A stretch of DNA of 61,263 bases from a virus. The position numbers and the translations under genes were made by a program. Shown in pieces: positions 4,810-61,263 of this stretch (positions are counted from its first letter, which is position 1; each line of letters starts with the position of its first letter). Location of the stretch: the IMG/VR virus record IMGVR_UViG_3300032722_000020, positions 1 to 61,263 of that record; one strand, given 5' to 3'. Under the pieces are notes generated by a model. It saw nothing but the letters and a program-made list of their open reading frames with translations. It ran no database searches and was not told the DNA's origin.

Positions 4810-4812
4810 AAC

Positions 4813-5256
4813 TCACTTCCCCCCTTTCGCGGTGGCGATGATGGAGCGGACAGCGATTTGAGCCGCTTCAACATTTTTGCGCGAAGCTGTGTTGCCGCTT
4901 TCCCCAAACATTTCCAAAACGGTGACTTCGCGGTCAAGACTTTCCAAAGCCGCCAGCAATTCCAAGCCAGCATCGCGCAATTCCGCATCGTCGCACCATT
5001 CCGCCGAATTGTAGCAAACCACATTCAGCGCCATTTTGCACAGGCACAACGCTTCTTCGCGCTCCTGTCTGGCGTCATTCAGAGCCATTTTGCAAAGTTT
5101 TTTGCCGTCGTCGTCACCGCAAAGGGCAATCGCCGTTTCAAGATACTCTGCTCCGGTGGCGTAGTCCCCACCATCGAGGCAAGCAATCGCGTGTTTTAGA
5201 TTTGGCAGGAACCGTTTTGATTTGAACTTTTTGTCTTTTGTCGTTTTCATTTTCAT
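4813..5256 (-). CDS. Helical repeat early protein, unknown
   Basis: 147 residues. It holds two copies of a Leu-Cys-Lys-Met-Ala-Leu-Asn phrase about 17 residues apart (residues 54-60 and about 71-77), pointing to a short helical repeat. The N-terminus is strongly basic and the rest acidic. Two ATGs six bases apart could serve as start (5256 or 5250). No function can be assigned. Confidence 0.55.
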   Translation of the reverse strand: MKMKTTKDKKFKSKRFLPNLKHAIACLDGGDYATGAEYLETAIALCGDDDGKKLCKMALNDARQEREEALCLCKMALNVVCYNSAEWCDDAELRDAGLELLAALESLDREVTVLEMFGESGNTASRKNVEAAQIAVRSIIATAKGGK

Positions 5257-5366
5257 TCTTTCGTTTTTGGCCTAACAAGGCCGGTTTGTTTTTTGCGTCT
5301 TGAATCCCTAACGCTTTTTTTGTTAATTCCCCAAATTCTAACGATTTTAGTTTGTCCTTAATGGTT

Positions 5367-6320: not shown

Positions 6321-6329
6321 TGCTTCTTA

Positions 6330-6358
6330 AATATACCAAGCGGCTTGCGTTTCGTCAA
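6330..6358 (-). promoter_or_regulatory. Sigma70-like promoter for ligase operon
   Basis: Read leftward: TTGACG, a 17-base spacer, then TATATT, about ten bases before the ligase ATG at 6320. This gives a short leader and would allow expression of the ligase and the small genes downstream independently of the 1142-residue gene. Confidence 0.75.
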
Positions 6359-6371
6359 AGGATATTTTTGC

Positions 6372-9800: not shown

Positions 9801-9813
9801 ATTTTTTTATCTC

Positions 9814-9834
9814 TACCGGAAACCGCCGGCACGG
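9814..9834 (-). promoter_or_regulatory. Leader hairpin box shared with the clamp gene
   Basis: A 21-base GC-rich element 13 bases before the start of the methyltransferase. It matches 17 of 21 bases at 12808-12828 in front of the clamp gene; both contain GCCGGCGG and CCGGTA able to pair over a short loop, followed by an A-tract. Probably a shared translational or stability element. Confidence 0.45.
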
Positions 9835-9858
9835 GTTAATTTTTCAGTGACAATTCAG

Positions 9859-9887
9859 TTTATATCAAACGGTTTGTTTTATGTCAA
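9859..9887 (-). promoter_or_regulatory. Strong sigma70-like promoter for the giant methyltransferase
   Basis: Read leftward: TTGACA, exactly 17 bases, TATAAA, in an AT-rich gap between the clamp and methyltransferase genes. It is the closest match to consensus that I find in the window. Confidence 0.82.
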
Positions 9888-9905
9888 TTATTTTTTAATT
9901 TATTT

Positions 9906-32524: not shown

Positions 32525-33475
32525 TCAATTCGCGGGCTGGCGATACATGAGCCGCTTTCCGGCAATCATCGGCATAAACGCAACCATGCGCTCGCCGTCT
32601 GTGCTTTTGCGGGTATTCCAGCGAAATTAAAACTCGCTGGCGTATTTTGAAAGATGCTCCGCAGAAATGCAATGCCACGCGCCGAAAACACCCCTTTTGA
32701 GCAAGGAAAAGAAACTCTCGCAGGTATTCACATGACTAACCGTGCCGTCTGGATTATGCCGCGCGTATTCGTATTTAGAGTGATTCACGCGCTGGTGACG
32801 GTCTTGCCCCTTCAAAGCCATTTTGTAGGACGGATGTTCGTCTGTGTTCACTATCGCCGTCTTGCGGGCGGCTGCCGCCATAAACTCGCCGACGTTTTTT
32901 GCCGTCACGCTTGGAATAACCCGCGTGCGCGCTTCGCCATTGCGCTCGACAATCAGCGCAACAATGGTCTTACGCTCCGGCTTTTCAAAGTTGGGCATGA
33001 ATGTTTCATCGGCTTCGCAAGTGTTGTCCAGCAGCTTTGCCGTTTTCAAATCCGCTCCCATTGCGTGCCGTATGCGATGCGCTAGAAACCAAGCCGTGCG
33101 GTAGGTGGTTTTTAGCATCCGCCGCAATTGCATCGCGCTAATGGATTTTTTAGACGAACACAGAATGAAAATTGCCATCAAGATTTTAGAAAGCGGGACG
33201 TGAGAATCTTCAAACACTGTGCCAACGGTTGCGGTGAACGGCTTGCGGCACGCGCCGCAAAAATAAACACCTTTGCGAAGTGGTGAACGGCTACCCGCTT
33301 TGGATTTCAGCTTGGAAATGGTTTTGGCTTTGCCGTCATTCTGGCAATGTGGGCAAACCGGCTTGCCATCCGGCCAGCGCAGTTGCTCAAAAAGTTTCCG
33401 CGCCCGGTTTTCGTTGGAATACTTCTTTGCCAGTGAAACCAGATTCAGTTCTTCGTCGTTAAGCTTCGCTTTCAT
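32525..33475 (-). pseudogene. IS1595/ISXO2-family transposase with premature stop
   Basis: The first 282 codons hold the family's zinc-ribbon (C41, C44, C73, C76) and DDE core: D156 in EADETF, D212 in NTDEHPSY and E253 in THVN-TCESFF. A TAA at 32627-32629 then interrupts the frame. The same frame continues for 33 codons and restores the expected C-terminal phrase (FRWNTRKSTDGERM, then GKRLMYRQP). The stop replaces the usual Asp of the E-F-D-F-R phrase, so it is a recent nonsense change. All three catalytic acids precede it, so partial activity is possible. Confidence 0.8.
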
Positions 33476-36734: not shown

Positions 36735-37112
36735 ATGAGCCTCGACGTATATCTGAGCGGAGAAACAAAAGACGTTCCATGCTGCTGCGACCGATGCGAA
36801 CACCGACACGTCCGCAAAGAAACTGAATACTTCTACGAATCCAACATCACGCACAACCTCGGCGCGATGGCGGAAGAAGCTGGAATCTACAATCACCTGT
36901 GGCGACCCGAAGAAGTCGGAATCACCAAGGCCGCTCAACTGATCGAACCGCTACACGCTGGCTTGGCACTGATGAAGTCTGATCCGACGCGATTCCAGAA
37001 ACATAACGCCCAAAACGGATGGGGACTCTACGAGCATTTCGTGCCTTGGGTCGAAAAGTATCTCGCTGCCTGCGAGGAAAACCCGACAGCAAACGTGAGC
37101 GTGTCCCGATAA
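36735..37112 (+). CDS. Conserved-type phage accessory protein
   Basis: 125 residues. The phrases SLDVYLSG, SNITHNLGAMAEEAGIY, LWRPEEVG and NGWGLYEHFVPWVEKYL form a pattern I have seen in uncharacterised phage proteins. Function unknown. TATTATG start context. Confidence 0.65.
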   Translation: MSLDVYLSGETKDVPCCCDRCEHRHVRKETEYFYESNITHNLGAMAEEAGIYNHLWRPEEVGITKAAQLIEPLHAGLALMKSDPTRFQKHNAQNGWGLYEHFVPWVEKYLAACEENPTANVSVSR

Positions 37113-38354: not shown

Positions 38355-38446
38355 ATTTAACGTCCCTGCTGAGCCAAGCCGGAACGGGAACGCCCGAAAA
38401 ACAAAATGAAGCGACTACCGGCTTTGGCTCCGGCAGGTGGTTAGAC
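38355..38446 (+). other. attC-like recombination site 1
   Basis: 92 bases. R'' ATTTAAC (38355-38361); L'' and L' arms GAGCCAAGCCGG and CCGGCTTTGGCTC are near-complementary; R' GTTAGAC (38440-38446). The order R''-L''-central-L'-R' and the GTTRRRY end are those of integron attC sites. Confidence 0.72.
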
Positions 38447-38471
38447 CCAGCGAATAACGACAAACAACAAT

Positions 38472-38864
38472 ATGACACCGACACAAACAGTGGCTACGAA
38501 TGAGCGACAATCTGCTATCCTGCCAAACGGTAATAAAATAATAGACTCCGCAATCGCCAGACAGCTTGCCTTGGATTTAGAGGAATGTGGGAAAGCCCTA
38601 AACGCAATGTCGCTTCGGTGTGAAAGGCTTCTGGACGAACGCGCAGAAGCCTATGAGACAATAAACACCCTGCACAATCTTTGCCTGTCTGCTGAAAAGC
38701 GCGCTCTTAAAAAACGTGATGAAGAAATCGCGCAGATAAAAAACGAGCTGCAATACCTCGTCGAAGTCTGCGAAACCAACTTAGAAACAAAAGACTGGCC
38801 GCGATTCAAATATGCCAAACGCATCGCCGCTGGGTCTAACGACAAGCTGACACACGCCGAATGA
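38472..38864 (+). CDS. Cassette gene, coiled-coil protein
   Basis: 130 residues with ALDLEECGKALNAMSLRCER and EEIAQIKNELQYLVEVCETN coiled coils and several Cys. First gene after site 1; its end lies inside site 2, as cassette genes often do. No family recognised. Confidence 0.6.
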   Translation: MTPTQTVATNERQSAILPNGNKIIDSAIARQLALDLEECGKALNAMSLRCERLLDERAEAYETINTLHNLCLSAEKRALKKRDEEIAQIKNELQYLVEVCETNLETKDWPRFKYAKRIAAGSNDKLTHAE

Positions 38865-38941
38865 AAAACCATAAAACAACCAGCGACCGAAGCGAACAAC
38901 CGAGCGCGCCCAACGGCGTTGTGTCCAGCGATTTGTTAGAC
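38834..38941 (+). other. attC-like recombination site 2
   Basis: 108 bases. R'' GTCTAAC (38834-38840); arms AAGCTGACACACGCCG and CGGCGTTGTGTCCAGC pair; R' GTTAGAC (38935-38941). Confidence 0.75.
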
Positions 38942-39742
38942 CCCATTTCAATAATCTCGCTAGGTGCGGGTGTCCAAAGCTCGACAATGGCACTGATGGC
39001 AGCGAGGGGCGAAATCGCGCCTATGCCCAAATATGCCATCTTTTCTGATGTCGGCGCAGAACCAAAGAATGTGTATGACTACCTCGACTATCTGGAAAAG
39101 CTGCTGCCGTTTCCTGTGCTGCGCGTGATGCACAAAGACGGGCTGACGAAAGCCATTGAAAAATCTCTAAAGTCTGGGTCTATCTCTGGAAGTCCGCCGT
39201 GGTTCAGTGCTGGCAAGGATGGAAAAGCCGTGCTGCTATCGCGTGCCTGCACGCATGACTTCAAAATACACCCGATACAACAAGCTATCCGGCGACTGAC
39301 GGGTGCTAAGCGTGGAAGCAAGAAAACTCACGCCGTGCTGTGGATAGGCATATCAACTGACGAAGCGCAGCGAATCAAAGACAGCCGCTATCCGCACTAC
39401 ATCCACCGCCATCCTCTAATCGAAAAGGGCATGAGCAGAAACAACTGTCTGGCATGGATGGAACGGAATGGCTACCAGCAACCGCCTAAATCTTCGTGCG
39501 TGTATTGCCCGTTTCACTCTAACCCGCACTGGCGGCAAATCAAAGACACAGACCCGGCTGGATGGGCGGAAGCTGTGCGCGTGGACAATCTCATCCGAGA
39601 CGGTGTGCGGCGGAATGGAAAGCCGCCAATGTATGCTCACCGCTCACTAAAACCACTAAACGAAATAGACCTGACAACTGACCTCGACCGTGGCCAAGAA
39701 CTACTCTGGGGAAACGAGTGTGAGGGGATGTGTGGGGTCTAA
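38861..39742 (+). CDS. PAPS reductase-like / adenine nucleotide alpha-hydrolase family protein (cassette)
   Basis: 293 residues. The SGGxxS-like PP-loop appears as ISLGAGVQSSTMAL at about residues 31-44, and YAIFSDVGAEPKNVYDYLDYL follows, as in phage PAPS-reductase-like proteins. HYIHRHPLIEKG and a C-terminal CVYCPFHSNPHWRQIK add a Cys pair. Such proteins activate or transfer sulfur or cleave nucleotides; the precise reaction is unknown. The ATG lies inside site 2, so the first ~30 residues are translated from attC; a later start near GTG 38920 would remove them. Its stop lies within site 3. Confidence 0.72.
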   Translation: MKNHKTTSDRSEQPSAPNGVVSSDLLDPISIISLGAGVQSSTMALMAARGEIAPMPKYAIFSDVGAEPKNVYDYLDYLEKLLPFPVLRVMHKDGLTKAIEKSLKSGSISGSPPWFSAGKDGKAVLLSRACTHDFKIHPIQQAIRRLTGAKRGSKKTHAVLWIGISTDEAQRIKDSRYPHYIHRHPLIEKGMSRNNCLAWMERNGYQQPPKSSCVYCPFHSNPHWRQIKDTDPAGWAEAVRVDNLIRDGVRRNGKPPMYAHRSLKPLNEIDLTTDLDRGQELLWGNECEGMCGV

Positions 39743-39845
39743 CGTGGGCGCTGAGCCGCCCCGGAAAGAAAACCATGAATGAACCAAAGACCGAAGCGAT
39801 AAACGACACGCGCCAACCGGGGTTGGCTCCAGCAACTTGTTATGC
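39737..39845 (+). other. attC-like recombination site 3
   Basis: 109 bases. R'' GTCTAAC (39737-39743); arms GCTGAGCCGCCCCGG and CCGGGGTTGGCTCCAGC pair well; R' GTTATGC (39839-39845), one base off GTTRRRY. Its antisense reading gives LLEPTPVGA. Confidence 0.76.
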
Positions 39846-40362
39846 TTCCCTGCCGCCAATCCTGGACGCTTGTTGTGGAGGCCGGCAATTCTGGTTCGAC
39901 AAGGAAAACCCGAACGTGCTTTTTGCTGACTGCCGCGTGATGCCTGACAAGGTGGTCGGGAGCGGCAAGGATGCCCGCACGCGCCGCTGCCTGCCGGATC
40001 GTGTCCACGACTTCCGCGCAATGGAATATCCCGACGAGACTTTTCAAATGGTCGTGTTCGACCCGCCGCATCTATTCCTCGGCGAGAATAGCTTCATGGC
40101 TCAAAGCTACGGGCGGCTGGACCGCGAAACGTGGCGCGATGATTTGAGCCGTGGCTTCGCCGAGTGCTTCCGAGTCTTGAAGCCCGGCGGCGTGCTTATC
40201 TTCAAGTGGAATGAATGCGACGTGCCACTTGCGGAAATTCTAAAACTCACGCCGCACAAACCGCTGTTCGGTCATCCGAGCGGCAAAGCACAGAAAACGC
40301 ACTGGTGCGCGTTCTGGAAGCATAACGCTCCGGCTCACCGGCCGGCGCGAGAACAAGAATAA
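39775..40362 (+). CDS. SAM-dependent methyltransferase (cassette)
   Basis: 195 residues. LDACCGGRQFWF is the SAM-binding motif I region, FQMVVFDPPHL the catalytic DPP(H/Y) and VLKPGGVLIFKWNE the post-motif strand. Probably modifies DNA or a small substrate. The ATG and first ~25 residues come from attC site 3. It ends inside site 4. Confidence 0.75.
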   Translation: MNEPKTEAINDTRQPGLAPATCYASLPPILDACCGGRQFWFDKENPNVLFADCRVMPDKVVGSGKDARTRRCLPDRVHDFRAMEYPDETFQMVVFDPPHLFLGENSFMAQSYGRLDRETWRDDLSRGFAECFRVLKPGGVLIFKWNECDVPLAEILKLTPHKPLFGHPSGKAQKTHWCAFWKHNAPAHRPAREQE

Positions 40363-40433
40363 CGCTATGACTACTCAATCAACGTCCGAACAGCCAGCGC
40401 CCGCGCCGGTTCGCGTGCAGCCGGTGGTTAGAG
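40320..40433 (+). other. attC-like recombination site 4
   Basis: 114 bases. R'' GCATAAC (40320-40326) matches the complement of R' of site 3; arms GGCTCACCGGCCGGCGCG and CGCGCCGGTTCGCGTGCAGCC pair; R' GTTAGAG (40427-40433). Confidence 0.65.
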
Positions 40434-40645
40434 CGCGATACCGTGTCTCTGACTGGATAAACACCAACACCATGCAGCCGGTCTTCGGCATCCAACACAA
40501 CAAGGAGCGGGGCAAGTGGGTGAACTGTGCGGTGGACGGCACGGCGCTGCTCTACACTAAACGCGAAACCGCCGAGAGACACTGCCGCTGGCTGAATGAC
40601 CCGAAAGGCACTGCGCCGGAATGGTCACAAGACTCAGCGCTCTAA
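40367..40645 (+). CDS. Cassette gene, 92-residue protein
   Basis: ATG lies inside site 4, so its N-terminal Pro/Val-rich residues derive from attC. RYRVSDWINTNTMQP and WVNCAVDGTALLYTKRE form a small alpha/beta unit. Unknown function. CTCTAAC (40640-40646) at its stop is an R''-like element without a visible partner. Confidence 0.6.
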   Translation: MTTQSTSEQPAPAPVRVQPVVRARYRVSDWINTNTMQPVFGIQHNKERGKWVNCAVDGTALLYTKRETAERHCRWLNDPKGTAPEWSQDSAL

Positions 40646-40679
40646 CAGTTAATTCAATCAACAGAGTTGCTATTATCAC

Positions 40680-41663
40680 ATGGGGCTTATCCAAAAACTG
40701 AACGATGCGATGATTGAGCAAAGCCTTGCGCGCTCAACTATGCAAGGCTACCGCTTTTGGAATCGCAAGTTCTATGGCTATGTGAAGAAACCGGCGAGCC
40801 AATGGCAAGGTGGCGATGTAAAGGCATTTTTACTGTGGTTGTATGCTGAAAATTATTCACCGGTTTCGCGCAAGCAGGCTTTGAATGCGCTGGCTTTTAC
40901 ATTCAAGCACGTTCTCATGGCAGACATGGGTAATTTGGAACTGCCGCCCATGCCGAAGGTGACTCAGACCAACCGGATTTTGCCATCGCCGGATGATTTG
41001 CAGCGCATTTTTGCCCTAATGAACGGTATGCCTAAAACAATGGCGCAACTGATGGCCGGATCTGGCCTGCGCGTGGCAGAGTGTTGCAAGCTGCGGGTGC
41101 AAGACGTGGACATTGAAGCCCGCACGATTCGCGTTTGGTTTGGAAAAAATGACAAGTGCCGGCGAACGATCATTCCTGATTCTCTGGTGCCGAAATTGCA
41201 GCGGCACCTGGCATTGCGAAAGGCACTGCATGACCGCGATCTAGCCGATGGACGCGGCTTGGTGGTTTTGCCGGGACGGCTGGCTAACAAATACCAGCAG
41301 GCTAACCAGGAATTTCGGCAGCAATGGTTTTTTCCGTCCACGAAGTTTCGCGGGCAGTATCGTTGGCACGCGGTTCCTGAATGTTTAGGAAAACCAATGC
41401 GCCGGGCTGTAAAGGCGGCGGGAATATTGAAGCACCTTACCCCGCATTGCCTGCGCCATTTCTTCATCACTTACAGTCAGCGCGTCGGAAATGACCTGAA
41501 AACAGTGATGGAATGGGCCGGTCATCAGAACCCAGAAACAACGATGATTTACACACACCCGGACGCGGCGAACGGGGTTAGTCCGTTGGATTATATGGTT
41601 GCCAGAACAATCATTACAACCCACCCGATGACACCAAGGCGGATTGAATTTCACCACGCATAA
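40680..41663 (+). CDS. intI: IntI-type integron integrase (tyrosine recombinase)
   Basis: 327 residues. Tyrosine-recombinase residues: R131 (GSGLRVAE), K156, H256 and R259 (TPHCLRH), H282 (AGHQNPE) and Y291 (MIYTH). Beyond the general fold it has integron-integrase hallmarks: HLALRKALHDRDLADGRG, a VVLPGRLANKYQQA phrase and the FPS patch (QQWFFPS at about 214-220) before the second catalytic box. It lacks the RRHH phrase of class 1 IntI and has QYRWH instead. It should recombine attC with attI or attC, using folded single-stranded attC. It lies on the same strand as the cassettes, with a TATTAT four bases before the ATG suggesting a near-leaderless mRNA. Confidence 0.75.
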   Translation: MGLIQKLNDAMIEQSLARSTMQGYRFWNRKFYGYVKKPASQWQGGDVKAFLLWLYAENYSPVSRKQALNALAFTFKHVLMADMGNLELPPMPKVTQTNRILPSPDDLQRIFALMNGMPKTMAQLMAGSGLRVAECCKLRVQDVDIEARTIRVWFGKNDKCRRTIIPDSLVPKLQRHLALRKALHDRDLADGRGLVVLPGRLANKYQQANQEFRQQWFFPSTKFRGQYRWHAVPECLGKPMRRAVKAAGILKHLTPHCLRHFFITYSQRVGNDLKTVMEWAGHQNPETTMIYTHPDAANGVSPLDYMVARTIITTHPMTPRRIEFHHA

Positions 41664-41738
41664 ATGTCCACAATCCAGACAGATTTATTTGCTACGCATG
41701 AATCTTCCGATTCCATCACCAACCCTAGCTCGACTTAA
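41664..41738 (+). CDS. 24-residue ORF with clamp-binding-like peptide
   Basis: Overlaps the next start in another frame and begins directly after the intI stop. Contains QTDLF near its N-terminus, the shape of the bacterial clamp-binding motif QxxLF. It may be a true microprotein or the lost N-terminus of the nuclease, separated by a frameshift. Confidence 0.3.
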   Translation: MSTIQTDLFATHESSDSITNPSST

Positions 41739-42066
41739 CCCGCACTTATTTAGCAGTGGTCAGTCCGTTGCTAGTTGCAGCGAACCAGTTACCCGCGAAA
41801 GTGACTTGCATGAATCCATCTTTGCCGAATGTCGGAAACGCGGTTGGATAGTGTTGCACGGTTCTATGTCAGAACGGACGCATCGCACGGCTGGCGAACC
41901 GGATTTTGTGATTCTGGCTAATGCGGGACGGTTGATGTTAGTGGAATGTAAGTCGCGCGGCGGTAAGTTATCGCCAACGCAAAGCGCGATGAAGGCGCAC
42001 GCGGAGAAGTTAGGCCATACGGTTCACGTTGTCAGGAGCATGGATGAATTTTTTAAGATTTTATGA
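41698..42066 (+). CDS. VRR-NUC family nuclease
   Basis: 122 residues. E40-like SDLHESIFAECRKRGW, GEPDFVILANAGRLMLVECKSRGGKLS and the following Q-x-A and VHVVRSMDEF phrases match the VRR-NUC fold with the PD-(D/E)xK core (P-D, then E-x-K). It probably cleaves branched DNA or acts as a Holliday-junction nuclease next to RecT and IntI. A GTTAGGC at 42008 is incidental coding sequence. Confidence 0.75.
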   Translation: MNLPIPSPTLARLNPHLFSSGQSVASCSEPVTRESDLHESIFAECRKRGWIVLHGSMSERTHRTAGEPDFVILANAGRLMLVECKSRGGKLSPTQSAMKAHAEKLGHTVHVVRSMDEFFKIL

Positions 42067-42138
42067 GTGAAAACAAAATGACGATGTTCATTTTTGAAAT
42101 TTACAGTAACTAAACCAACCGAAACCAAAAACAAAAAT

Positions 42139-42948
42139 ATGACAACTGCCATTGCAACTACATCAAAACCAAAAACCGAAACCAAGCCAAACGCGCTCGT
42201 AAGCCTCGCCGCTCGCCTGCAAGTTGATCCCGCCCGCCTGCAAACCATCTTGAAATCTACTGTGTTTGCCAAGGCTAATGATGATGAGTTCGCCGCGCTC
42301 GTTATTGTCTGCCAAGAGTATCGGCTCAATCCACTGCTCAAAGAGATTTACGCATTTCCCGCAAAGGGCGGCGGCATCTGCCCGATTGTCAGCGTTGACG
42401 GTTGGAACAAAATGCTCATCACGCACCCGGAATTTGATGGCATTGAATATGTTCGTGGGGATGATTCCGAAGGCAATCTTCAATCCTGCACCGCGACGGT
42501 CTTTATGAAGAACCGTTCGCATCCGATGGTCATTACCGAATACCTGTCCGAGTGCAAGCGGAATACCGAGCCGTGGAATCAAATGCCGTGGCGGATGCTT
42601 CGTAACCGCACCACCTGTCAGGCCGCGCGCATGGCCTTTGGTTTCTCTGGGGTCTATAATGAAGATGAAGCCAAGACCATCACCGTCGAGTCAACGGTGA
42701 TTCCCAACGAACCGCCGCCGAAGATTATTGCTGCGCCGGCTACGACCACGGCACAAGCCGAACTGGAAGCACTTATCACCGGAGAAGGTTACACCTTTGA
42801 CCATCTGCAAAAGTTCGGGATTGAAACTGGAAACATTGCGAATGCTGATAGCATCGGCGGATTCGATGAAATCAGCACGGACGACGCCAAGCGGTTGCTC
42901 AAAGCTAAGACTGGTTTGTTGAACGGTTTGAAGGCGATTAAGGGATAA
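42139..42948 (+). CDS. recT: RecT/Redbeta-family single-strand annealing protein
   Basis: 269 residues. LARLQVDPARLQTILKSTVF, EFAALVIVCQEYRLNPLLKEIYAF, then VSVDGWNKMLITHPEF and AARMAFGFSGVYNEDEA are the conserved RecT-family blocks. It anneals complementary single strands in phage recombination. Start context AAATATG. The C-terminal ~90 residues are family-variable and helical. Confidence 0.85.
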   Translation: MTTAIATTSKPKTETKPNALVSLAARLQVDPARLQTILKSTVFAKANDDEFAALVIVCQEYRLNPLLKEIYAFPAKGGGICPIVSVDGWNKMLITHPEFDGIEYVRGDDSEGNLQSCTATVFMKNRSHPMVITEYLSECKRNTEPWNQMPWRMLRNRTTCQAARMAFGFSGVYNEDEAKTITVESTVIPNEPPPKIIAAPATTTAQAELEALITGEGYTFDHLQKFGIETGNIANADSIGGFDEISTDDAKRLLKAKTGLLNGLKAIKG

Positions 42949-42970
42949 AATCTTACCACAAAAACCGTGA

Positions 42971-43014
42971 ACGCCTGCGGAGAAAGTAATAGGCGTGACA
43001 GCCGGAGAGACGGC
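42971..43014 (+). other. Structured leader before the coiled-coil gene
   Basis: ACGCCT (42971-42976) pairs with AGGCGT (42991-42996), then GCCG (43001-43004) with CGGC (43011-43014), followed by TTTTTT and the ATG. Possible structured 5' leader; no known riboswitch recognised. Confidence 0.35.
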
Positions 43015-43026
43015 AACCAATTTTTT

Positions 43027-43953
43027 ATGAGCGAATCACTAATCATCATGCCGTTGGAAAAGCTGCCGGTGGCGCAAATCGCACCCATCGCAATCCATTT
43101 GCGCGACGAGGCTCTGGCTTCATCCGCACTGATTGGTAAGGTGGAAAACGCCGAGCAGAACAATAAATGTTCCGCCGCCCGCAAGCAAATCAAAGGGCTG
43201 CTATCGCTGTTTGAATCCCAGCGCAAAAAGTTAAAAGAACCAATCTTGGAAGCGGGACGCTACTTGGATCGAATCGTTGCGACTGAATCCGAGGACTTGA
43301 AACGTGAAGATGGCCGGCTGGAAAACTTGGAAAAAGATTTTATCCGTGCCGAACTGCGTCGGAAATCCGAGGAAGAAGAATTGCAGCGCAAGGAACTCGC
43401 CCGTATCGAAGCCGAGAAGCAAGCCGAACTGCTCCGTATCGCCCGCGAGCAGGCGGCGCGCGAGGAAGAAGCGCGACGGGTTGCCGCCGAAGCTGAACGC
43501 ATTGCCAGCGAGGAGCGCGAGGCCGCTGAAAAGCTGGCACGGGAGGCAACCAACAAGAAACAGCGTGAAGCCGCCGAAGCTGCCCGCATCGAGGCCGAGA
43601 AGCGCGCCGAAGCCGCCCGTATTGAGGCCGAACGGATTGCAGAGCTTGCTGCCGAAACCGCCCGCCAGCAAGCACAGTTGGCCGTAGAACGCGCCGAAAC
43701 CGCAACCTATGTCGAATCGCGCCCGGTCGAGATAACACGCGCGAAAGGGCAGTCCGTTCGCAAGGAGTGGGTGATTGAACAAATTAACGACTTTCAACTG
43801 ATGAAGGCGCGGCCCGACCTAGTTCGGAAGGTGGAATGGGATATGGTTGGTTTGAAACAGGCATTAGCCGCTGGTGAGAAGTTGCCCGGTGTCCGCGCCC
43901 GTGAAGATATATCCATTGGAACTCGCGCGGGAAAGGCGCTGATTGAAGTCTAA
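43027..43953 (+). CDS. Coiled-coil partner of RecT module
   Basis: 308 residues. A structured N-terminal ~70 residues, then a long Glu/Ala/Arg coiled coil (about 100-225), and a C-terminal unit (AKGQSVRKEWVIEQINDFQL). The pattern matches DUF1351-like recombination partners often encoded after RecT. Role probably structural or DNA-binding. Confidence 0.65.
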   Translation: MSESLIIMPLEKLPVAQIAPIAIHLRDEALASSALIGKVENAEQNNKCSAARKQIKGLLSLFESQRKKLKEPILEAGRYLDRIVATESEDLKREDGRLENLEKDFIRAELRRKSEEEELQRKELARIEAEKQAELLRIAREQAAREEEARRVAAEAERIASEEREAAEKLAREATNKKQREAAEAARIEAEKRAEAARIEAERIAELAAETARQQAQLAVERAETATYVESRPVEITRAKGQSVRKEWVIEQINDFQLMKARPDLVRKVEWDMVGLKQALAAGEKLPGVRAREDISIGTRAGKALIEV

Positions 43954-43957
43954 TCCC

Positions 43958-44188
43958 ATGACCATCAAGACCCACATCGAATTAGAAGTGGAAGTAGCGT
44001 TCGACTATGTAAAAGAAGAACGCGAAACCCGTAACTGCCCCGGATCGCCGGAGAGTATTGAAATTACTTCCGTCACCATTTTACAAAACGGGGCGGAATT
44101 GACGTTGACACCACAACAGTCATATCAGGTCGAAACCGATTTCTGGGATGCGTTGGAAAAGATGAGGAAAGAACCAGTTGAACCATGA
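43958..44188 (+). CDS. 76-residue acidic protein
   Basis: Begins MTIKTHIELEVEVAFDYVKE; acidic with a beta-rich N-terminus and a helical end. Phage recombination modules often carry such a protein. No function known. CCCATG start context. Confidence 0.5.
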   Translation: MTIKTHIELEVEVAFDYVKEERETRNCPGSPESIEITSVTILQNGAELTLTPQQSYQVETDFWDALEKMRKEPVEP

Positions 44189-44228
44189 ATTTTAACCGAC
44201 AAAACATAATGCACAAGGAGGCTTCAAT

Positions 44229-44894
44229 ATGAAGCCAGACGCCTTTATGCCGCTTTACGGCGACGACTTCATCAGCGCGGTAAAGATGCTGCCAAAGGAT
44301 GTCAAATGGATTTACCTTGAATGCTGCTGGCATTACTGGTCGCACACGCATTGCGAAGGATTGCCCGATGACGATTCCCTGTTACAGGAACTGTCACAGG
44401 TTCAGTTACCAGATGTGTGGCGCAGGGTGAAACAGCTTGTGTTCGACAACGACAAGTTCTTTGTTTTGGACGGCGGCAAGTGGCATCAAAAGCGTTGCCG
44501 CGAGCTATATCTAACAGCTAAAGAGGCTTACGCCAAAAAGGTTCGCCAAACATCCGCTGCTAGGGCTGCTGTTACAAAGACTGTTACAGGCTCTGTTACA
44601 GTCCGCAAACTAAAACCAGAACCAGAGTTAATAGAAGATAAGACTAATGGGCTTCGCCCAATAGCTTTCAATGGAAGGCTTTCACCGATACAGGCCGCAA
44701 CCGCCACCAGATTCGCTTCTGTGCTTGGATGTCAATGGGATCAAGGAAATGGAAGAAAATGGATGAAGCGGTGCAGAGACGAAAGAATTAGGGCAGAGCG
44801 AGTCATTAGCGAAGTGGAAAATGCAATTAAGGAAAACCGGGTTAAAACCACGCCCGCGCAATACGCGGAGCAGATTTGGAAGGAGTTTGTATGA
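44229..44894 (+). CDS. Replication initiator, DUF1376-like N-terminus
   Basis: 221 residues. FMPLYGDDFISAVKMLPKD, a YLECCWHYWSHTHCEGLPDDD phrase and GGKWHQKRC match the DUF1376 winged-helix domain of phage replication organisers. The C-terminal half is basic and helical. Probably binds the origin and recruits a helicase or loader. Stop overlaps the next start (ATGA). Confidence 0.7.
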   Translation: MKPDAFMPLYGDDFISAVKMLPKDVKWIYLECCWHYWSHTHCEGLPDDDSLLQELSQVQLPDVWRRVKQLVFDNDKFFVLDGGKWHQKRCRELYLTAKEAYAKKVRQTSAARAAVTKTVTGSVTVRKLKPEPELIEDKTNGLRPIAFNGRLSPIQAATATRFASVLGCQWDQGNGRKWMKRCRDERIRAERVISEVENAIKENRVKTTPAQYAEQIWKEFV

Positions 44895-45079
44895 GAAAAA
44901 TGACGCAAGATCAAATGGAACTTTTCAAAAAAGTATGTTTGCAGAAAAACCATGAGCAGTTTTAGGCGGCTTGTGAATCAGTAAAAGAAAACGGTGAATA
45001 TCCTATTGATTGGTTTTCAATCGTCCGACAGTCAGGCATGGCTGACTTCTACTACAAAAACAAATTTTCAGAGCTATAA
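44891..45079 (+). pseudogene. Short gene with an in-frame amber codon and clamp-binding-like motif
   Basis: A 63-codon frame with ATGA coupling to the initiator. The first 24 codons include QMELF (a QxxLF clamp-binding shape) at residues 8-12, then TAG at 44963-44965. The frame continues with well-formed coding (AACESVKENGEYPIDWFSIV) to TAA at 45077. Either a nonsense mutation or amber readthrough; no suppressor tRNA is visible. Confidence 0.5.
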
Positions 45080-45091
45080 AACAACAACCTT

Positions 45092-45319
45092 ATGATCATC
45101 ACCAACAAACCAAACCTTCATTGCCCGAACTGCTCCAACAAGTTGCGATGGTGGCACGCTACCAAGATGCAGGACGACGAGAGCATTGTTGTTGTGCATC
45201 GTGATTGCAGACTGACAGCCGCACGGTGCAAGTATGTTCGCAACGTGGTGCTTGCGATAGTGCTAGGGCTGGCTAGTGCTGGCGCGGCGGTGATGTTCGG
45301 ACATTTGGCGAGTAAATAA
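45092..45319 (+). CDS. Zinc-ribbon and membrane protein
   Basis: 75 residues with CPNCSNKLRWWH near the start, a C-x6-C (CRLTAARC) in the middle, and a membrane segment NVVLAIVLGLASAGAAVMF at the end. Function unknown; AACCTTATG start context. Confidence 0.5.
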   Translation: MIITNKPNLHCPNCSNKLRWWHATKMQDDESIVVVHRDCRLTAARCKYVRNVVLAIVLGLASAGAAVMFGHLASK

Positions 45320-45330
45320 AAAATAAAAAT

Positions 45331-45507
45331 ATGACTGAACCAATCAAACTCCGGCGTCCGGCGAAATATCTGCACACCGGCAAACATGACTATGATGACG
45401 GCTTCCGAGTCGGAAGCAACTGCGCCAAACGCCGCACTATCCGTGCCTTCAAGCGCGGGCAACGTCGTGAAAGTCTCAAATACATGACTCAAGACGAAGT
45501 GGCCTAA
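45331..45507 (+). CDS. 58-residue basic cassette gene
   Basis: Arg-rich (RRTIRAFKRGQRRESLKY). Its stop is inside attC site 5, as expected for a cassette gene. Unknown function. ATATG start context. Confidence 0.55.
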   Translation: MTEPIKLRRPAKYLHTGKHDYDDGFRVGSNCAKRRTIRAFKRGQRRESLKYMTQDEVA

Positions 45508-45592
45508 AGCTCCGCATTAGCGACCGCCGACCAAAACGCTATGATTGCAACTGAGACGCCCAACGGCGGTTCACTCGATGCGGTTGTTAGGC
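45502..45592 (+). other. attC-like recombination site 5
   Basis: 91 bases. R'' GCCTAAA (one base off), arms TCCGCATTAGCGACCGCC and GGCGGTTCACTCGATGCGG pair, R' GTTAGGC (45586-45592). Confidence 0.72.
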
Positions 45593-45774
45593 ATACACCG
45601 TGGACACAAGATGAAGATGATATGCTGCGCTACTGGTATGGGTGCGCGAATGGCGCAATGACCCCATACCGGCACATGGCTGAATATCTGAACAAACACT
45701 TTCACGGCGGCAAACCAATCCGAAAAGTCGGTGCAATAGCTCGCCGCGACGGAAAAATAAACTACGGCAAATGA
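45541..45774 (+). CDS. Myb/SANT-like cassette protein
   Basis: 77 residues with start inside site 5. PWTQDEDDMLRYWYGCANGA, then HMAEYLNKHFHGGKPIRKVG resembles a Myb/GcrA-like helix triad. Its stop overlaps the next start (ATGA). Confidence 0.6.
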   Translation: MIATETPNGGSLDAVVRHTPWTQDEDDMLRYWYGCANGAMTPYRHMAEYLNKHFHGGKPIRKVGAIARRDGKINYGK

Positions 45775-46049
45775 AATACATAATCGAAACTGGAAATGAC
45801 GGAGGCGCGGCCTCGGTAGTGGGATGGACTCACGACTTCGGAAGTGCCTGCAATGAAGTGGCGCGGATAGTCGGGATTGACTGCTATGTGAAAATCCAGC
45901 CAATCAATCGCGGCAAAAACGGCGCGATATGGAACTTCGTCCATGACGGAAAAACAAAGTGGCTGCGCGTGCTTAAAATGCCCGCTGCCGAAACCTACGG
46001 CGCGATGGATGTATGTTCGCCCGTTCGAGACGCATCGCTGTATGCCTAA
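45771..46049 (+). CDS. Cassette gene, unknown
   Basis: 92 residues: MKYIIETGNDGGAASVVGWT, then AIWNFVHDGKTKWLRVL, a compact alpha/beta unit with the stop in site 6. Function unknown. Confidence 0.55.
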   Translation: MKYIIETGNDGGAASVVGWTHDFGSACNEVARIVGIDCYVKIQPINRGKNGAIWNFVHDGKTKWLRVLKMPAAETYGAMDVCSPVRDASLYA

Positions 46050-46152
46050 CGTAGAAAGCTGAGCCACCCGCGACCTATGACATCCGCCAACCAGAAACCT
46101 TCTCGGTCAACTGACAGCGCCAACGCGGGTTGGCTCCGGCGACTTTTTAGGC
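46044..46152 (+). other. attC-like recombination site 6
   Basis: 109 bases. R'' GCCTAAC (46044-46050); arms GCTGAGCCACCCGCG and CGCGGGTTGGCTCCGGC are complementary; R' TTTAGGC (46146-46152), one base off. Antisense reading gives KSPEPTRVGAV. Confidence 0.78.
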
Positions 46153-46176
46153 CACTGGTATAACTGAAACAAAAAT

Positions 46177-46539
46177 ATGGGATACATATCTGAAACAATC
46201 GGCAATCTGGAACACGAGCAACGGACGGCAAACAAGCTGGCCGACGCGATAGCCCTGCTGCGCGAACTCGAATGGTCGGGATGCGTGAACACCGAAATAC
46301 TCGCGGTGAACACCTGCCCGTGCTGCTACAACTGGAAACCAACAAGCGGTGACGATGATTTCTGGAAAGGCCGCGAACTGCGGAAAGGACACACGCCGGA
46401 CTGCAAGCTTGCCGATTTGCTGAAAGCATCTAACGCGGACATCAGGCGCGGCGACGTGAACCGCGACAGCGGAACAGCAAGCGCCAACGGCGGTTGGCTC
46501 CGGCGACTGGTTAGGCATAGCGATATAAAATCTAAATAA
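46177..46539 (+). CDS. Cassette gene, Cys-rich protein
   Basis: 120 residues with CVN-x-E-x-CPCCYNW and DCKLADLL, a likely metal-binding pattern. The end reads through site 7 (GGWLRRLVRH), so the native gene probably ended near residue 95. Confidence 0.55.
   Translation: MGYISETIGNLEHEQRTANKLADAIALLRELEWSGCVNTEILAVNTCPCCYNWKPTSGDDDFWKGRELRKGHTPDCKLADLLKASNADIRRGDVNRDSGTASANGGWLRRLVRHSDIKSK
46428..46516 (+). other. attC-like site 7, degenerate
   Basis: R'' ATCTAAC (46428-46434) and R' GTTAGGC (46510-46516), with a good right arm (GGTTGGCTCCGGC) but a poor left arm. The antisense reading gives QSPEPTAVGA like site 6. Lower confidence for the left half. Confidence 0.58.
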
Positions 46540-46540
46540 A

Positions 46541-46777
46541 ATGAAAACCGAAACCAAACGAACCGACAAGGAACGCGAGCAACAAGCTGCGACTCCCGAC
46601 AAACCGCGCTCGGCATATCTTGCGCGTAAATTCTTTCCGCACCTCGGCGAATATCACGGACAAGCCTTGGTCGAACAACTAATCCGCGCCGCCGCTATGC
46701 CTAACGAAAAAGCTGACCTACCGCCGACCGGGGCGCGTCAGCCGCGTAGCGGAACTGAAGGCGGTAACGGAGGTTAG
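46541..46777 (+). CDS. Cassette gene, 78-residue basic protein
   Basis: Lys/Arg/Glu-rich N-terminus, then YLARKFFPHLGEYHGQALVE. Its last ~25 residues come from site 8. Unknown function. Confidence 0.5.
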   Translation: MKTETKRTDKEREQQAATPDKPRSAYLARKFFPHLGEYHGQALVEQLIRAAAMPNEKADLPPTGARQPRSGTEGGNGG

Positions 46778-46796
46778 GTCCGGCGCTTTTTTAGCT
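46699..46796 (+). other. attC-like recombination site 8
   Basis: 98 bases. R'' GCCTAAC (46699-46705); arms GCTGACCTACCGCCG and GGTAACGGAGGTTAGGTCC pair; R' TTTAGCT (46790-46796). Confidence 0.65.
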
Positions 46797-46820
46797 GAAC
46801 GTCAAAAAAAACAGAAAATT

Positions 46821-47219
46821 ATGGGAACAAACTACTATCTGAAAACGAATATCTGCCAGCACTGCAATCGCGCTGGAGAAGAAAAACACATCGGCAAATC
46901 TTCCGGCGGCTGGCACTTCGCGCTGCACGTCGAGCCGGAAAATGGCATCGCAACTCTGGATGACTGGAAAGTGCTGTTCGCGCAACCAGACTCCAAAATC
47001 TTCGATGAATACGGCAAAGAAATCGCTGTGGATGAAATGCTGAAAATCATCACCGAACGGTCATGGTGGCAGCGAAAGAACGACTGGAAGAAAGAACAAT
47101 ACGAACAAAACCACGCCCAACCCGGCATCAATGGACTCATCCGCAACAAAATAGAACCCGACCACTGTGTCTCGCACGGCGAAGGAACGTGGGACTGCAT
47201 CGTGGGCGAGTTCAGATAA
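46821..47219 (+). CDS. Cassette gene, conserved-type zinc protein
   Basis: 132 residues. MGTNYYLKTNICQHCNRAGE, then HIGKSSGGWHFALH is a pattern I recognise as recurring in uncharacterised phage and bacterial proteins. Cys/His likely bind metal. GAAAATTATG start context. A truncated attC follows. Confidence 0.6.
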   Translation: MGTNYYLKTNICQHCNRAGEEKHIGKSSGGWHFALHVEPENGIATLDDWKVLFAQPDSKIFDEYGKEIAVDEMLKIITERSWWQRKNDWKKEQYEQNHAQPGINGLIRNKIEPDHCVSHGEGTWDCIVGEFR

Positions 47220-47223
47220 AGCT

Positions 47224-47250
47224 CCTGCTGACCTACCGCGCACGTTAGAT
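47224..47250 (+). other. Truncated attC remnant
   Basis: GCTGACCTACCGCG (left-arm type) followed after three bases by GTTAGAT (47244-47250), an R'-type end, with the central part and right arm missing. Looks like a deletion product. Confidence 0.45.
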
Positions 47251-47503
47251 GCGAATGTCCAAACTCAAAAAATATATGGCAAAAAATAAAACAAGCAACA
47301 GACACGAAAATCAGCAACATCCCAAATGGGAATATATGATTAACGACTTGGCGTTCCTGAACACTGAAAAGGAAACCATCCTGAACCTTCTTGGCCAAGA
47401 TGGATGGGAAGCCGTCGGATTTACCGGCAATGGCTCGGTGCTTCTAAAAAGGAAAGCATCTAAACGTAGAAAGCTGATCCACCGCCGACTAAAATCTAAC
47501 TAA
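47249..47503 (+). CDS. Cassette gene, 84-residue protein
   Basis: First ATG overlaps the R' end of the remnant; ATG 47276 (ATATATG context) is a likely alternative. WEYMINDLAFLNTEKETILNLL, then GWEAVGFTGNGSVLLKRK resembles DUF4177-like small alpha/beta proteins. Basic end read from attC-like DNA. Confidence 0.55.
   Translation: MRMSKLKKYMAKNKTSNRHENQQHPKWEYMINDLAFLNTEKETILNLLGQDGWEAVGFTGNGSVLLKRKASKRRKLIHRRLKSN
47457..47490 (+). other. Left half of an attC site
   Basis: GCATCTAAACGTAGAAAG then CTGATCCACCGCCGAC closely follow the left half of site 6 (46044-46075), but no right half follows. Confidence 0.5.
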
Positions 47504-59092: not shown

Positions 59093-61263
59093 ATGAGTGC
59101 CACCGCCGCTGATACCACCGAAGCCAAAGAAAAAACGCCCGCCGTTGAACCAACGGCAGCGTCTCACCAACCCGCAGAAGTCAAACCGCCGGTGGAAATG
59201 GAGCGGAGCGGCGACAACCTGCTTTACCGCTACACCGACGTTGCCAGTGGTGACGTTATCGGCGAGGACACCTTTCAAATCGCAGCCGCTTCCGAGTTTC
59301 CAGGGCAGCAGATTTGCGATGAAATCCACGCGCGTCTTGGTATTGCAAAAGAAGGCGAACTTTACACCGAAATCTTGAGCCACAACGAAGGCGATGCCGA
59401 CCTTTCTTTTTTCAACACTGGCCGCGCCGCGTTTTTGGACGAACACAAGACCAACCGGCATCTTGGCAACATCAAAAAAGCCACTCTTTCCAAAGACAAA
59501 GTGACGCGCGTTTTGGTGCAATGCGATGAGGTTTCAAAACTTTCCAAGACCCGCAAAAAACAACTCGGCAAAAAAAGCCGGATGAATGTTTCTTGCGGTT
59601 ACATCCACACCAAGTATCTCGGCGCACAGAAGTTGGACGACGGAACGATTGGACACCGCTTCGCATGGCAAGGCCGCGAAGTTTCCAGCGTGGGCGATCC
59701 GCTCGACCCGACGGTTGGATTGCAGCGCGCGGCGGCGGTGGACAAGACGTGCTGCTTTGGTTGCGGCAAGCAGATGAAAAGCGTGGACATGATTAAATCC
59801 GACGACGCGCTTTATTGCAGCCAGGATTGCATTGACGCCGAAACCCCGGCGGAAGAAGAAGCCGAGCGCAAGGGCGGAGAGAAAATGTTTCGTTCCAAAA
59901 AGGACGCCAAGGAAATCCGAATCTCGCACGCGGATCTGAAACGCAAGGTAGTCACTGCGCTGGAAACCGACAAGCGGTTCAAACACAAGCGGGACAACGG
60001 CGACATGGTTTCTGATTTTTACCACCACGACAACCATCAGGTGAGTTCGGACGGGACAGATTTTCAAGCCATCGTTTCATCCCCGGCGTGGCGCGATGGC
60101 AGAAAACTTTACGCGGTGGATTTTAGTTACGACGGCGAGAATGTGACGCTCGGCGAAGCCACCCATGTTGAGCCAAAAACCACGCTTGAAGCCGTCGAGC
60201 GCGGCGTCCCATGCGACCTGAAACAATTCCGCGCAGTTGACTCCACAAATTTATCGAAAGCGGAAATTAACGCACCAAACATCATATCCAGAAAATTTAT
60301 GGCCGACAAAACACCAGAACAAATCGCTGCCGAAACCATCGCGCAGAAACCCGAACTCGTCGTTGACAGTCTGGCGACGCCCCACGTCCAGCGCAAGCTG
60401 ACTGAACTTGGCTACCGTTCCAAAGTGGAGTTGGAAGCCGCCGCGAACACGAGCAAGGCCAATCTCGCCGCACGCAACAACGAAATCACCGCGCTCGAAA
60501 CCGAGTTCTCCCGCGATTTTGGTTCGCGCATCGCCTACCGCAAACTATCCGACGGAAAGAAAGAGCCGGTTTATCTGCGCGATGCCATCCACATCGCCGC
60601 GATGGAAGCCTGCGCGCACGACGAATCCAAGCCGGCCACTGAAATCCGACAGATTTTCCGCAGCAAAGTGGACGATTTGAAGCGTGATTCCGTTTCCGAG
60701 GAAAACATCAAGCGCAGCATTGACGCCGCCGAAGTTGGTTTGGCTGGCCGTTGCGATGACGTTTTCTCCGTCATCAAACGCACACTCGCTGACGCGCATT
60801 CCAAAGGTGTTCAAACCCGGAGTCTAATGCCGACCGGCGCGGAACTGGAATACTCAGATGAAGTTCGCGGCCATTTCAAATCCATGCCCGGTTGCTCGCA
60901 CATCGCCGATCTCGGCGGTTTCATGTCGCCCCCGAAACAGGGTCGCAAGTTTGAAGGCAAGATGGTTCGAGGCGGCGCTTCCGCCCGCCGGATGCAGCGT
61001 GACGCGCTCGCTTCCGATTTCGGCACGGTTGGCGCGATGATTGCGCCGGAGTTCCGACCCTACATCGAACTGCTCCGAAATTCGACGGTGCTGGATAAGC
61101 TCGGCTGCACCTACATCGGCGGCTGCAATGGCGAACAGGTTTTCCCGCGTCAGGACGCGGCCACGGTTGCGCAGTCGGTCGCGGAAGGTTCACAGTTAAA
61201 TCCCTACGACCAGACCCTCGGCCAGATCAAGATGACGCCCAAGCGCGTGGGTTCCCGCCAGTA
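59093..61263 (+). CDS. HK97 prohead protease with inserted zinc knuckle, fused to capsid (3' partial)
   Basis: 723 codons from ATG 59093 to the window edge, continuing at base 3 (about 923 residues in the circle). Residues 50-215 form the S78-like protease: DEH at 116-118 gives catalytic H118, VSCGY gives S167, and REVSSVGDPLDPTVG is the usual end strand. Residues 221-246 insert C221-x2-C224-x17-C242-x3-C246, a zinc-knuckle pattern. A second module about 265-370 (SHADLKRKVVTAL, then YAVDFSYDGENVTLGEATHV) follows, then a helical scaffold-like stretch and the capsid domain from about 640. Fusing protease, scaffold and capsid enforces one-to-one stoichiometry. Confidence 0.85.
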   Translation, partial: MSATAADTTEAKEKTPAVEPTAASHQPAEVKPPVEMERSGDNLLYRYTDVASGDVIGEDTFQIAAASEFPGQQICDEIHARLGIAKEGELYTEILSHNEGDADLSFFNTGRAAFLDEHKTNRHLGNIKKATLSKDKVTRVLVQCDEVSKLSKTRKKQLGKKSRMNVSCGYIHTKYLGAQKLDDGTIGHRFAWQGREVSSVGDPLDPTVGLQRAAAVDKTCCFGCGKQMKSVDMIKSDDALYCSQDCIDAETPAEEEAERKGGEKMFRSKKDAKEIRISHADLKRKVVTALETDKRFKHKRDNGDMVSDFYHHDNHQVSSDGTDFQAIVSSPAWRDGRKLYAVDFSYDGENVTLGEATHVEPKTTLEAVERGVPCDLKQFRAVDSTNLSKAEINAPNIISRKFMADKTPEQIAAETIAQKPELVVDSLATPHVQRKLTELGYRSKVELEAAANTSKANLAARNNEITALETEFSRDFGSRIAYRKLSDGKKEPVYLRDAIHIAAMEACAHDESKPATEIRQIFRSKVDDLKRDSVSEENIKRSIDAAEVGLAGRCDDVFSVIKRTLADAHSKGVQTRSLMPTGAELEYSDEVRGHFKSMPGCSHIADLGGFMSPPKQGRKFEGKMVRGGASARRMQRDALASDFGTVGAMIAPEFRPYIELLRNSTVLDKLGCTYIGGCNGEQVFPRQDAATVAQSVAEGSQLNPYDQTLGQIKMTPKRVGSRQ
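60633..61263. repeat. Right copy of imperfect terminal repeat
   Basis: Matches 1-631 at about 90% with identical outer parts; differences are mainly synonymous (for example gaaatggggctg versus gaagttggtttg), so both are functional alleles of the same gene. Confidence 0.93.

Follow-up and report, generated by a model that had tools for sequence, protein, structure and literature searches.

Integrons are bacterial gene-capture platforms, and in phages they have been met mostly as stray pieces. Qi et al. 2023 (PMC9892861) described both complete integrons and attC clusters in phage genomes. Vibrio, Shewanella, and P1 phages had the complete ones, which derived from the host or from class 1 integrons and were mostly fragments of host or mobile integrons; virulent phages had attC clusters but no intI. 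Treponema-type integrons (PMC3607928) have an atypical structure in which intI is collinear with the cassettes. Here, we analyzed a 61,263-nucleotide viral DNA (IMG/VR record IMGVR_UViG_3300032722_000020; the window). An initial annotation of it proposed a phage-borne integron and knew of no established description of one inside a phage, but Qi et al. had described such cases earlier.

The window is a near-complete phage genome of approximately 60.6 kb that encodes an integron integrase and eight attC sites. The two ends of the contig overlap (631 nt, 93% identity), and therefore no host DNA flanks the integron. Phage genes, recognized by PHROGs and NCBIfam, lie on either side of it. Contamination with host DNA was considered and dropped, given these phage genes, the overlapping ends, and many sister phages. 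The initial annotation treated the sites as a single array. They are in fact split into two arrays (38355-40433 and 45502-46796), with intI and a 4-kb block of phage genes between them:

40680 to 41663, plus strand: intI, integron integrase, 327 aa (TIGR02249, PDB 2a3v, IntI-clade placement)
41698 to 44894, plus strand: phage replication/recombination genes between the arrays (PHROGs and NCBIfam matches)

The gene types in this block are Holliday-resolvase/endonuclease-like, Bet/RecT-type annealing protein, exonuclease-like, and primosomal-like. Used as a query, the window's Bet protein retrieved no viral relative.

The intI reading frame is open, the tyrosine recombinase catalytic residues (R131, K159, H256, R259, H282, and Y291) are present, and alignments, including one with 2a3v, revealed the IntI-specific insert LPGRLANKYQQANQEFRQQWFFPS. 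The top PDB match was Vibrio cholerae IntI (2a3v; 2.4e-45). The protein scored 223.7 bits against TIGR02249 and 87 against XerC; the former misses the curated cutoff of 265, but the tree nonetheless supports IntI membership. We rebuilt the tree after removing misoriented rows, whose branches had been very long. As the initial annotation had proposed, the enzyme grouped with IntI proteins, apart from Xer and ordinary phage integrases (split support 100/99). It formed a clade with the IntI of four other phages (100/98; 97/85 when L050 and L056 were added), which expanded to a phage-only clade of 21 phages (support 94), with a core of 15 at 99. About 21 IMG/VR phages therefore have an IntI of this clade. 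Catalytic residues and the open frame are kept across its divergent members. The closest cellular IntI in 388 Verrucomicrobiota genomes was 38 to 40% identical to that of the window, versus 62% for another phage. Viral relatives were found with alignment queries but not with the window's IntI as the sole query. Judged by these trees, the window's IntI is part of a phage-only lineage, which was invisible to the initial annotation.

We built a covariance model from seven window sites and three sites of a relative. In the window it matched eight sites, each of them on the minus strand; its best plus-strand score there was 14.3 bits. The scores of the seven training sites are circular. The sites and two further truncated ones, which lie beyond the eight first noticed, are as follows:

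38355 to 38446, minus strand: attC 1, distal end of array 1 (R1 80.0 bits; extra bases in the minus-strand 5' arm)
38834 to 38941, minus strand: attC 2 (R1 94.8 bits)
39737 to 39845, minus strand: attC 3 (R1 95.8 bits)
40320 to 40433, minus strand: attC 4, adjoins the putative attI (R1 62.4 bits)
45502 to 45592, minus strand: attC 5, distal end of array 2 (R1 67.0 bits)
46044 to 46152, minus strand: attC 6 (R1 98.7 bits)
46428 to 46516, minus strand: attC 7, decayed 3' arm (R1 38.8 bits, weak; outside the model training set)
46699 to 46796, minus strand: attC 8 (R1 71.9 bits)
about 47213 to 47251, minus strand: truncated attC-like remnant (sequence inspection)
about 47459 to 47490, minus strand: half attC with one arm only, right end of array 2 (chromosomal attC arm match)

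The model also matched 102 sites in verrucomicrobial integron arrays, at up to 77.4 bits. Thus, both the eight sites and their description as one family, as in chromosomal integrons, were upheld; it is the family that fills chromosomal superintegrons of Verrucomicrobiota. attC 7 shares 92.8% identity over 69 nt with a chromosomal attC of genome G096, and a 27-nt stretch of the half site matches one arm of a chromosomal attC at 96% identity. R boxes, an imperfect hairpin, and extrahelical bases are all present, although the predicted folding of two intact-looking sites is weak. A box-plus-arm finder returned three window sites scoring at least 31, versus 0.1 per shuffled window. Rfam gave no match at the gathering threshold. 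Coding repeats were dropped as a candidate, the window sites matching chromosomal attC arrays. A Verrucomicrobiota host is suggested solely by the attC family.

The cassettes between these sites are small and hold one gene each, as initially annotated, apart from one shared by two genes:

38472 to 38864, plus strand: cassette gene 1, 130 aa, no assigned function (coding on the plus strand by codon log-odds); within attC 2, its stop and the start of the following gene overlap in an ATGA
38861 to 39742, plus strand: cassette gene 2, PAPS-reductase-like phage protein (phrog_424, 1.2e-42; codon model); ATG within attC 2; a homolog adjoins attC and intI in L254
39775 to 40362, plus strand: cassette gene 3, DNA methyltransferase (phrog_954, 2.2e-65); ATG within attC 3; homologs in integron loci L234, L035, L242, and L053
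40367 to 40645, plus strand: cassette gene 4, 92 aa, no assigned function (codon model); ATG within attC 4
45541 to 45774, plus strand: cassette gene 5a, 77 aa; ATG within attC 5
45771 to 46049, plus strand: cassette gene 5b, 92 aa, shares a cassette with 5a (coding-strand analysis)
46177 to 46539, plus strand: cassette gene 6, 120 aa; C terminus encoded by attC 7
46541 to 46777, plus strand: cassette gene 7, 78 aa (codon model)
46821 to 47219, plus strand: cassette gene 8, 132 aa, phage family without assigned function (phrog_12436, 5.4e-7; codon model)
47249 to 47503, plus strand: cassette gene 9, 84 aa (codon model)

At about half of the sites, the start codon of the next gene is inside attC, sometimes overlapping the preceding stop, which suggests translational coupling between cassette genes. 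Recurrent cargo includes DNA methyltransferases, PAPS-reductase-like genes, and Mom-like genes.

For short cassettes, the longest ORF left polarity ambiguous, so we turned to a codon model trained outside the array. An independent reading of attC polarity came from where the extrahelical bases lie, with a class 1 plasmid attC serving as control. All nine window cassettes are coded on the plus strand, antiparallel to their minus-strand attC sites. Therefore, the genes point along phage transcription. The initial annotation was right that the genes are on the plus strand, but the conventional array that it saw in them is not there: attC reads canonically on the minus strand, and no cassette gene is parallel to attC, the arrangement needed for expression from Pc. 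Within the phage IntI clade, 46 of 53 cassettes were antiparallel and 7 parallel, with several calls near ties; one member, L246, had normal polarity (3/3). In verrucomicrobial chromosome controls, for which codon-model training included the array, only 5 of 78 were antiparallel and 73 were parallel. Fisher gave 5e-18 for this difference on the first 26 phage cassettes, with the proviso that observations on cassettes of one array are not independent. Among the scanned loci, several cellular and viral ones (e.g., L030) were ordinary chromosomal-type integrons and served as controls only. In TJE1, the one attC located in this analysis had normal polarity. A second phage clade (clade II) and Virus Rctr41k have normal cassettes, with the array downstream of intI; they also align their genes with phage transcription, by a different layout. 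The same methyltransferase family occurs in both gene-attC relations.

Comparison among relatives pointed to a candidate attI:

40638 to 40662, minus strand: putative attI, just upstream of intI; plus strand GCTCTAAC/AGTTAATTCAATCAA (comparison among relatives)

The motif AAC/AGTTAATTGAACAA is common to the window, L007, L219, and L220, and L221 and others have AAC/AGTGTATTGAACAA. A conserved attI-like motif precedes intI in many of the approximately 21 clade phages. Homology of L219 and L220 begins at AAC/AGTTAATTG. The near-identical (99%) phages L049 and L050 differ in their first cassette from exactly the attI crossover, and in L007 the same cassette end was found joined to attC and to attI. 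These natural variants suggest that the cassettes are exchangeable. Upstream of seven intI genes of Verrucomicrobiota, no motif resembling the phage attI was evident. Array 2 has no attI and includes decayed sites, and therefore part of the system may be a relic.

Could IntI instead be the phage's own lysogeny integrase, inserting the phage at host attC or attI and leaving the arrays as by-products or scars? The window has no other tyrosine recombinase, a search for resolvase-type recombinases there came back empty, most sister records have a single integrase-family match, and a Vibrio prophage has been reported to excise at attC sites (PMC9892861). However, the variable unit at attI is a one-gene cassette rather than a phage, the cassettes form ordered arrays with shared cargo families, and a few relatives have a second integrase. 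A portal protein search of 388 Verrucomicrobiota genomes, run without a positive control, also found no prophage related to the window's portal protein. We consider this explanation unlikely. Decay at 46428-46516, 47213-47251, and 47459-47490 and the weakly folding sites would fit a dead relic, in which IntI and attC sites persist without activity and the array has turned into an ordinary phage operon. This is quite improbable, because catalytic residues and the open frame are intact across a divergent clade, close relatives differ naturally at attI, and L007 has one cassette end joined to both kinds of site.

Recent capture of a fragment of a host chromosomal integron, as in Vibrio anguillarum phages, would account for an attC family common to Verrucomicrobiota chromosomes and for the similarity of attC 7 to one of their sites. 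It is very unlikely given the phage-only IntI clade, the more similar IntI in another phage than in cells, the flipped cassette genes, and the phage genes on both sides. A captured integron of the kind described by Qi et al. would have IntI and array near-identical to those of the host, whereas the best cellular IntI in the 388 Verrucomicrobiota genomes is 38 to 40% identical. The start and stop codons in the hairpins might even mark them as intergenic RNA elements for translational coupling rather than recombination sites, but they belong to the sequence family of chromosomal attC arrays, have R boxes and extrahelical bases, and adjoin IntI, which makes this idea barely credible.

We are fairly confident that the window carries an integron that is resident in phages and belongs to a distinct phage lineage, with polarity-reversed cassettes and an anti-restriction bias. 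Its family has been found so far only in viruses, and its cassettes are antiparallel, in contrast to bacterial integrons. IntI would join attC sites to the attI beside its own gene, so that small cassettes are gained, lost, and reordered. The layout of the att sites appears canonical, the array leaving attI on the strand opposite intI. The cassettes are what is reversed, placing each gene on the strand of intI and the phage operon. Transcription presumably reads through from phage promoters and does not start at an integron promoter; Pc would yield antisense transcripts of such cassettes. The recurrent DNA-modification cargo suggests selection for changing the anti-restriction outfit between hosts. 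The sequences themselves show the anatomy, the IntI phylogeny, the identity of the attC sites, the reversed polarity, and natural differences in cassettes at attI; activity of the enzyme, read-through expression, and an anti-restriction benefit are inferred.

A broader proposal seems somewhat favored: two or more ancient integron lineages belong to phages themselves and draw on a cassette pool that is largely private to them. DNA-modification genes would dominate this pool as a swappable anti-restriction kit, lineage I being the one with reversed cassettes. If so, insertion by lineage I IntI would always orient a gene to match phage transcription. Ordinary bacterial cassettes taken up by lineage I would be antisense, and phage cassettes in a bacterial integron would be silent, so that polarity would be a partial barrier between the pools. 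With their own IntI lineage, att sites, and reversed cassettes, phages would own integrons and not merely carry them, which would explain rapid swapping of DNA-modification genes by some phages. As to how cassettes arise, the reversed relation shows that the 5' end of a gene can receive an attC. A testable rule is that cassette genes follow the transcription of their carrier, whatever the direction of attC.

The phages of Qi et al. (PMC9892861) are alike in having intI and/or attC in their genomes and DNA methyltransferase cargo, but neither a phage-only IntI clade nor reversed polarity was reported there. Class 1 integrons share with the window an IntI family member with the insert and attC extrahelical bases; their attI beside intI has a putative counterpart in the window. 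However, IntI1 is 36% identical to the window's IntI, and class 1 cassettes are read from Pc, parallel to attC. Treponema-type integrons (PMC3607928) also have intI and the cassette genes on one strand, and it is clade II and Rctr41k that resemble the Treponema layout, whereas the window keeps its att sites on the canonical side and flips the gene-attC relation. The sedentary chromosomal integrons of Verrucomicrobiota share the attC family and have attC upstream of intI on the opposite strand, but their genes run parallel to attC in 73 of 78 cassettes, and their IntI is only 38 to 40% identical to that of the window.

The open reading frame at 40680-41663(+), proposed to encode an integron integrase, does so by several measures. 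Its top PDB match was V. cholerae IntI (2a3v; E 2.4e-45), with XerA and XerD ranking behind. The TIGR02249 model scored it at 223.7 bits, below the curated cut-off of 265, compared with 87 for XerC, and the protein retains the IntI-specific insert and every catalytic residue. In a careful tree, IntI stood apart from Xer and phage integrases (100/99). The same tree grouped the window protein with the IntI proteins of four comparison loci, L221, L007, L219, and L220 (100/98), and joined this group with L050 and L056 (97/85). Further phages were gathered by IntI-alignment searches of IMG/VR, and in the resulting enlarged quick tree the phage clade had 21 members (support 94) with a core of 15 (support 99). 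The closest relative of the window IntI in the enlarged set, from L244, is 62% identical. The best cellular IntI in 388 genomes of the phylum Verrucomicrobiota is only 38-40% identical, which rules out recent capture from any sampled host. IntI is the sole tyrosine recombinase of the window and of most sister phages, so it may also serve phage integration.

The setting is a phage genome, with terminase, portal, and major head protein genes detected. Because the last 631 bases of the 61,263-base record (60633-61263) repeat the first 631 (1-631) inside the capsid gene, the genome, of about 60.6 kb, is nearly complete, either circular or permuted, and without flanking host DNA. At only 93% identity, the overlap suggests that such a genome was assembled from a mixed population. 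An IS1595-family transposase gene also lies within it (32627-33475, minus strand).

The window attC sites are real. We trained a covariance model, R1, on ten sites, seven of the window and three of the relative L007. It matched eight window sites, each on the minus strand. Since seven of these trained the model, its result outside the window is the informative one: in Verrucomicrobiota genomes R1 matched 102 sites, spread over 15 loci that include superintegrons with one site per ~500 bases. A finder using R boxes and complementary arms alone gave three window sites at a score of at least 31, versus 0.1 per shuffled window. Furthermore, site 46428-46516, which was outside the training set, aligns over 69 nt with a chromosomal attC at 92.8% identity. 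Judged from the attC family only, the host would belong to Verrucomicrobiota. One verrucomicrobial array (L206; G102:C1 1420000-1438000) contains a six-attC stretch twice, 4,903 bases apart with equal site scores, a tandem duplication of several cassettes. The single array first proposed for 38355-47490 has to be divided in two:

38355-40433, attC sites on the minus strand: array 1, ending at the putative attI just before intI
40638-40662: putative attI, its position deduced from comparison
40680-41663, plus strand: intI
45502-46796, plus two truncated sites to 47490, attC sites on the minus strand: array 2, without attI

Array 2 is partly decayed. Between the arrays are phage genes for recombination and replication. 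Immediately left of array 1 is a small plus-strand gene (36735-37112). Its match, at 43% identity over 92 aa, is from Tetrasphaera phage TJE1, which is among the attC-cluster phages of Qi et al. 2023 (PMC9892861).

On the gene-encoding strand of a canonical attC site, it is the 5' arm that holds the extra bases. A class 1 plasmid attC, our control, had them there, and at chromosomal sites the R1 match falls on the gene-encoding strand. The window and L007 sites have theirs in the minus-strand 5' arm. A codon model, with the arrays kept out of its training, assigned 9/9 window cassettes to the plus strand, in agreement with the initial annotation. Therefore, the window cassette genes are antiparallel to their attC sites. 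This was true of 25/26 first-scored cassettes of the window and related phages, whereas chromosomal verrucomicrobial cassettes were parallel in 73/78 by the same scoring (Fisher 5e-18, with cassettes not fully independent). A second phage set had 21 antiparallel and 6 parallel cassettes, several calls being near ties; three of the 6 came from L246, a phage of the window's IntI clade that is unlike the rest. An ATG within attC opens the next cassette's frame at 14/27 sites, and some of these overlap the preceding stop (e.g., ATGA at 38861).

The system most probably works as follows. IntI would recombine attI with the folded bottom strand of attC, which in this phage is the plus strand, and the attC of every incoming cassette would thereby keep the canonical orientation. 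The cassettes carry the gene the other way round, so it would end up aligned with the phage operon, under phage promoters. The att sites thus follow canonical logic, but the gene-site coupling does not.

A common motif immediately precedes intI in many clade members (AAC|AGTTAATTGAACAA, AAC|AGTGTATTGAACAA, or AAC|nnCTGATTCAACC). Over 11 kb spanning attI, intI, terminase, and head-tail adaptor, L049 and L050 share 99.1% identity. Their first cassettes, beside attI, nevertheless differ, and identity starts at AAC|CACTGATTCAACC, the predicted crossover. The L219/L220 alignment likewise runs from the attI point onward, with none upstream. L007 1-34 repeats the end of its attI-proximal cassette (1781-1814), with the copy at the contig start joined to an attC and the other to attI before intI, apparently because the assembly broke at a junction that recombines. 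All three observations are what IntI exchange would be expected to leave.

Among the array 1 genes are a PAPS-reductase-like one (phrog_424; 38861-39742) and a DNA methyltransferase gene (phrog_954; 39775-40362). Cassettes of L220 encode the same two functions, those of L007 and L221 include a methyltransferase, and L056 carries a Mom-like protein. By inspection, several DNA-methyltransferase-like genes apparently lie in a row upstream of intI in L234 (a 10-kb phage contig; 1-2700). Homologues of the window methyltransferase (47-51% identity) are in integron loci L234, L242, L035, and L053. From this cargo, the likely benefit is rapid switching of DNA modification against host restriction.

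The careful tree contained a second phage-only IntI clade of 12 members (L010, L011, L012, L014, L017, L018, L023, L026, L035, L039, L040, and L063; support 99/98). In this clade and Virus Rctr41k (KX853513, L003), attC sites were downstream of intI with normal polarity wherever they were located, and 11/12 cassettes were parallel to attC. In Rctr41k, from a methane-oxidizing enrichment, the annotated "integrase-like protein" in region 4680-10100 is IntI, followed by small plus-strand genes and these sites:

8415-8545: attC
8686-8813: attC
9305-9434: attC
near 9970-10100: one further attC

Rctr41k carries a complete phage-borne integron, so far unrecognized. Both this layout and that of the window leave cassette genes collinear with phage transcription. 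AGRM01000002 in the phage collection is a misplaced 691-kb Salmonella genome contig, classified under Bacteria and encoding XerD.

Qi et al. 2023 (PMC9892861) established integrons and attC clusters in phages and showed that phage attC sites function with IntI1; the complete integrons in that study derive from integrons of the host or of class 1. Our text searches of the open-licence literature turned up neither a phage-only IntI clade nor systematic reversal of cassette polarity. In Treponema integrons, intI and cassettes are also collinear (PMC3607928), but by a different arrangement than in the window. According to a review, bottom-strand selectivity is essential for orienting cassettes to be expressed from Pc (PMC8946536), and the window integron inverts this link between strand selectivity and expression.
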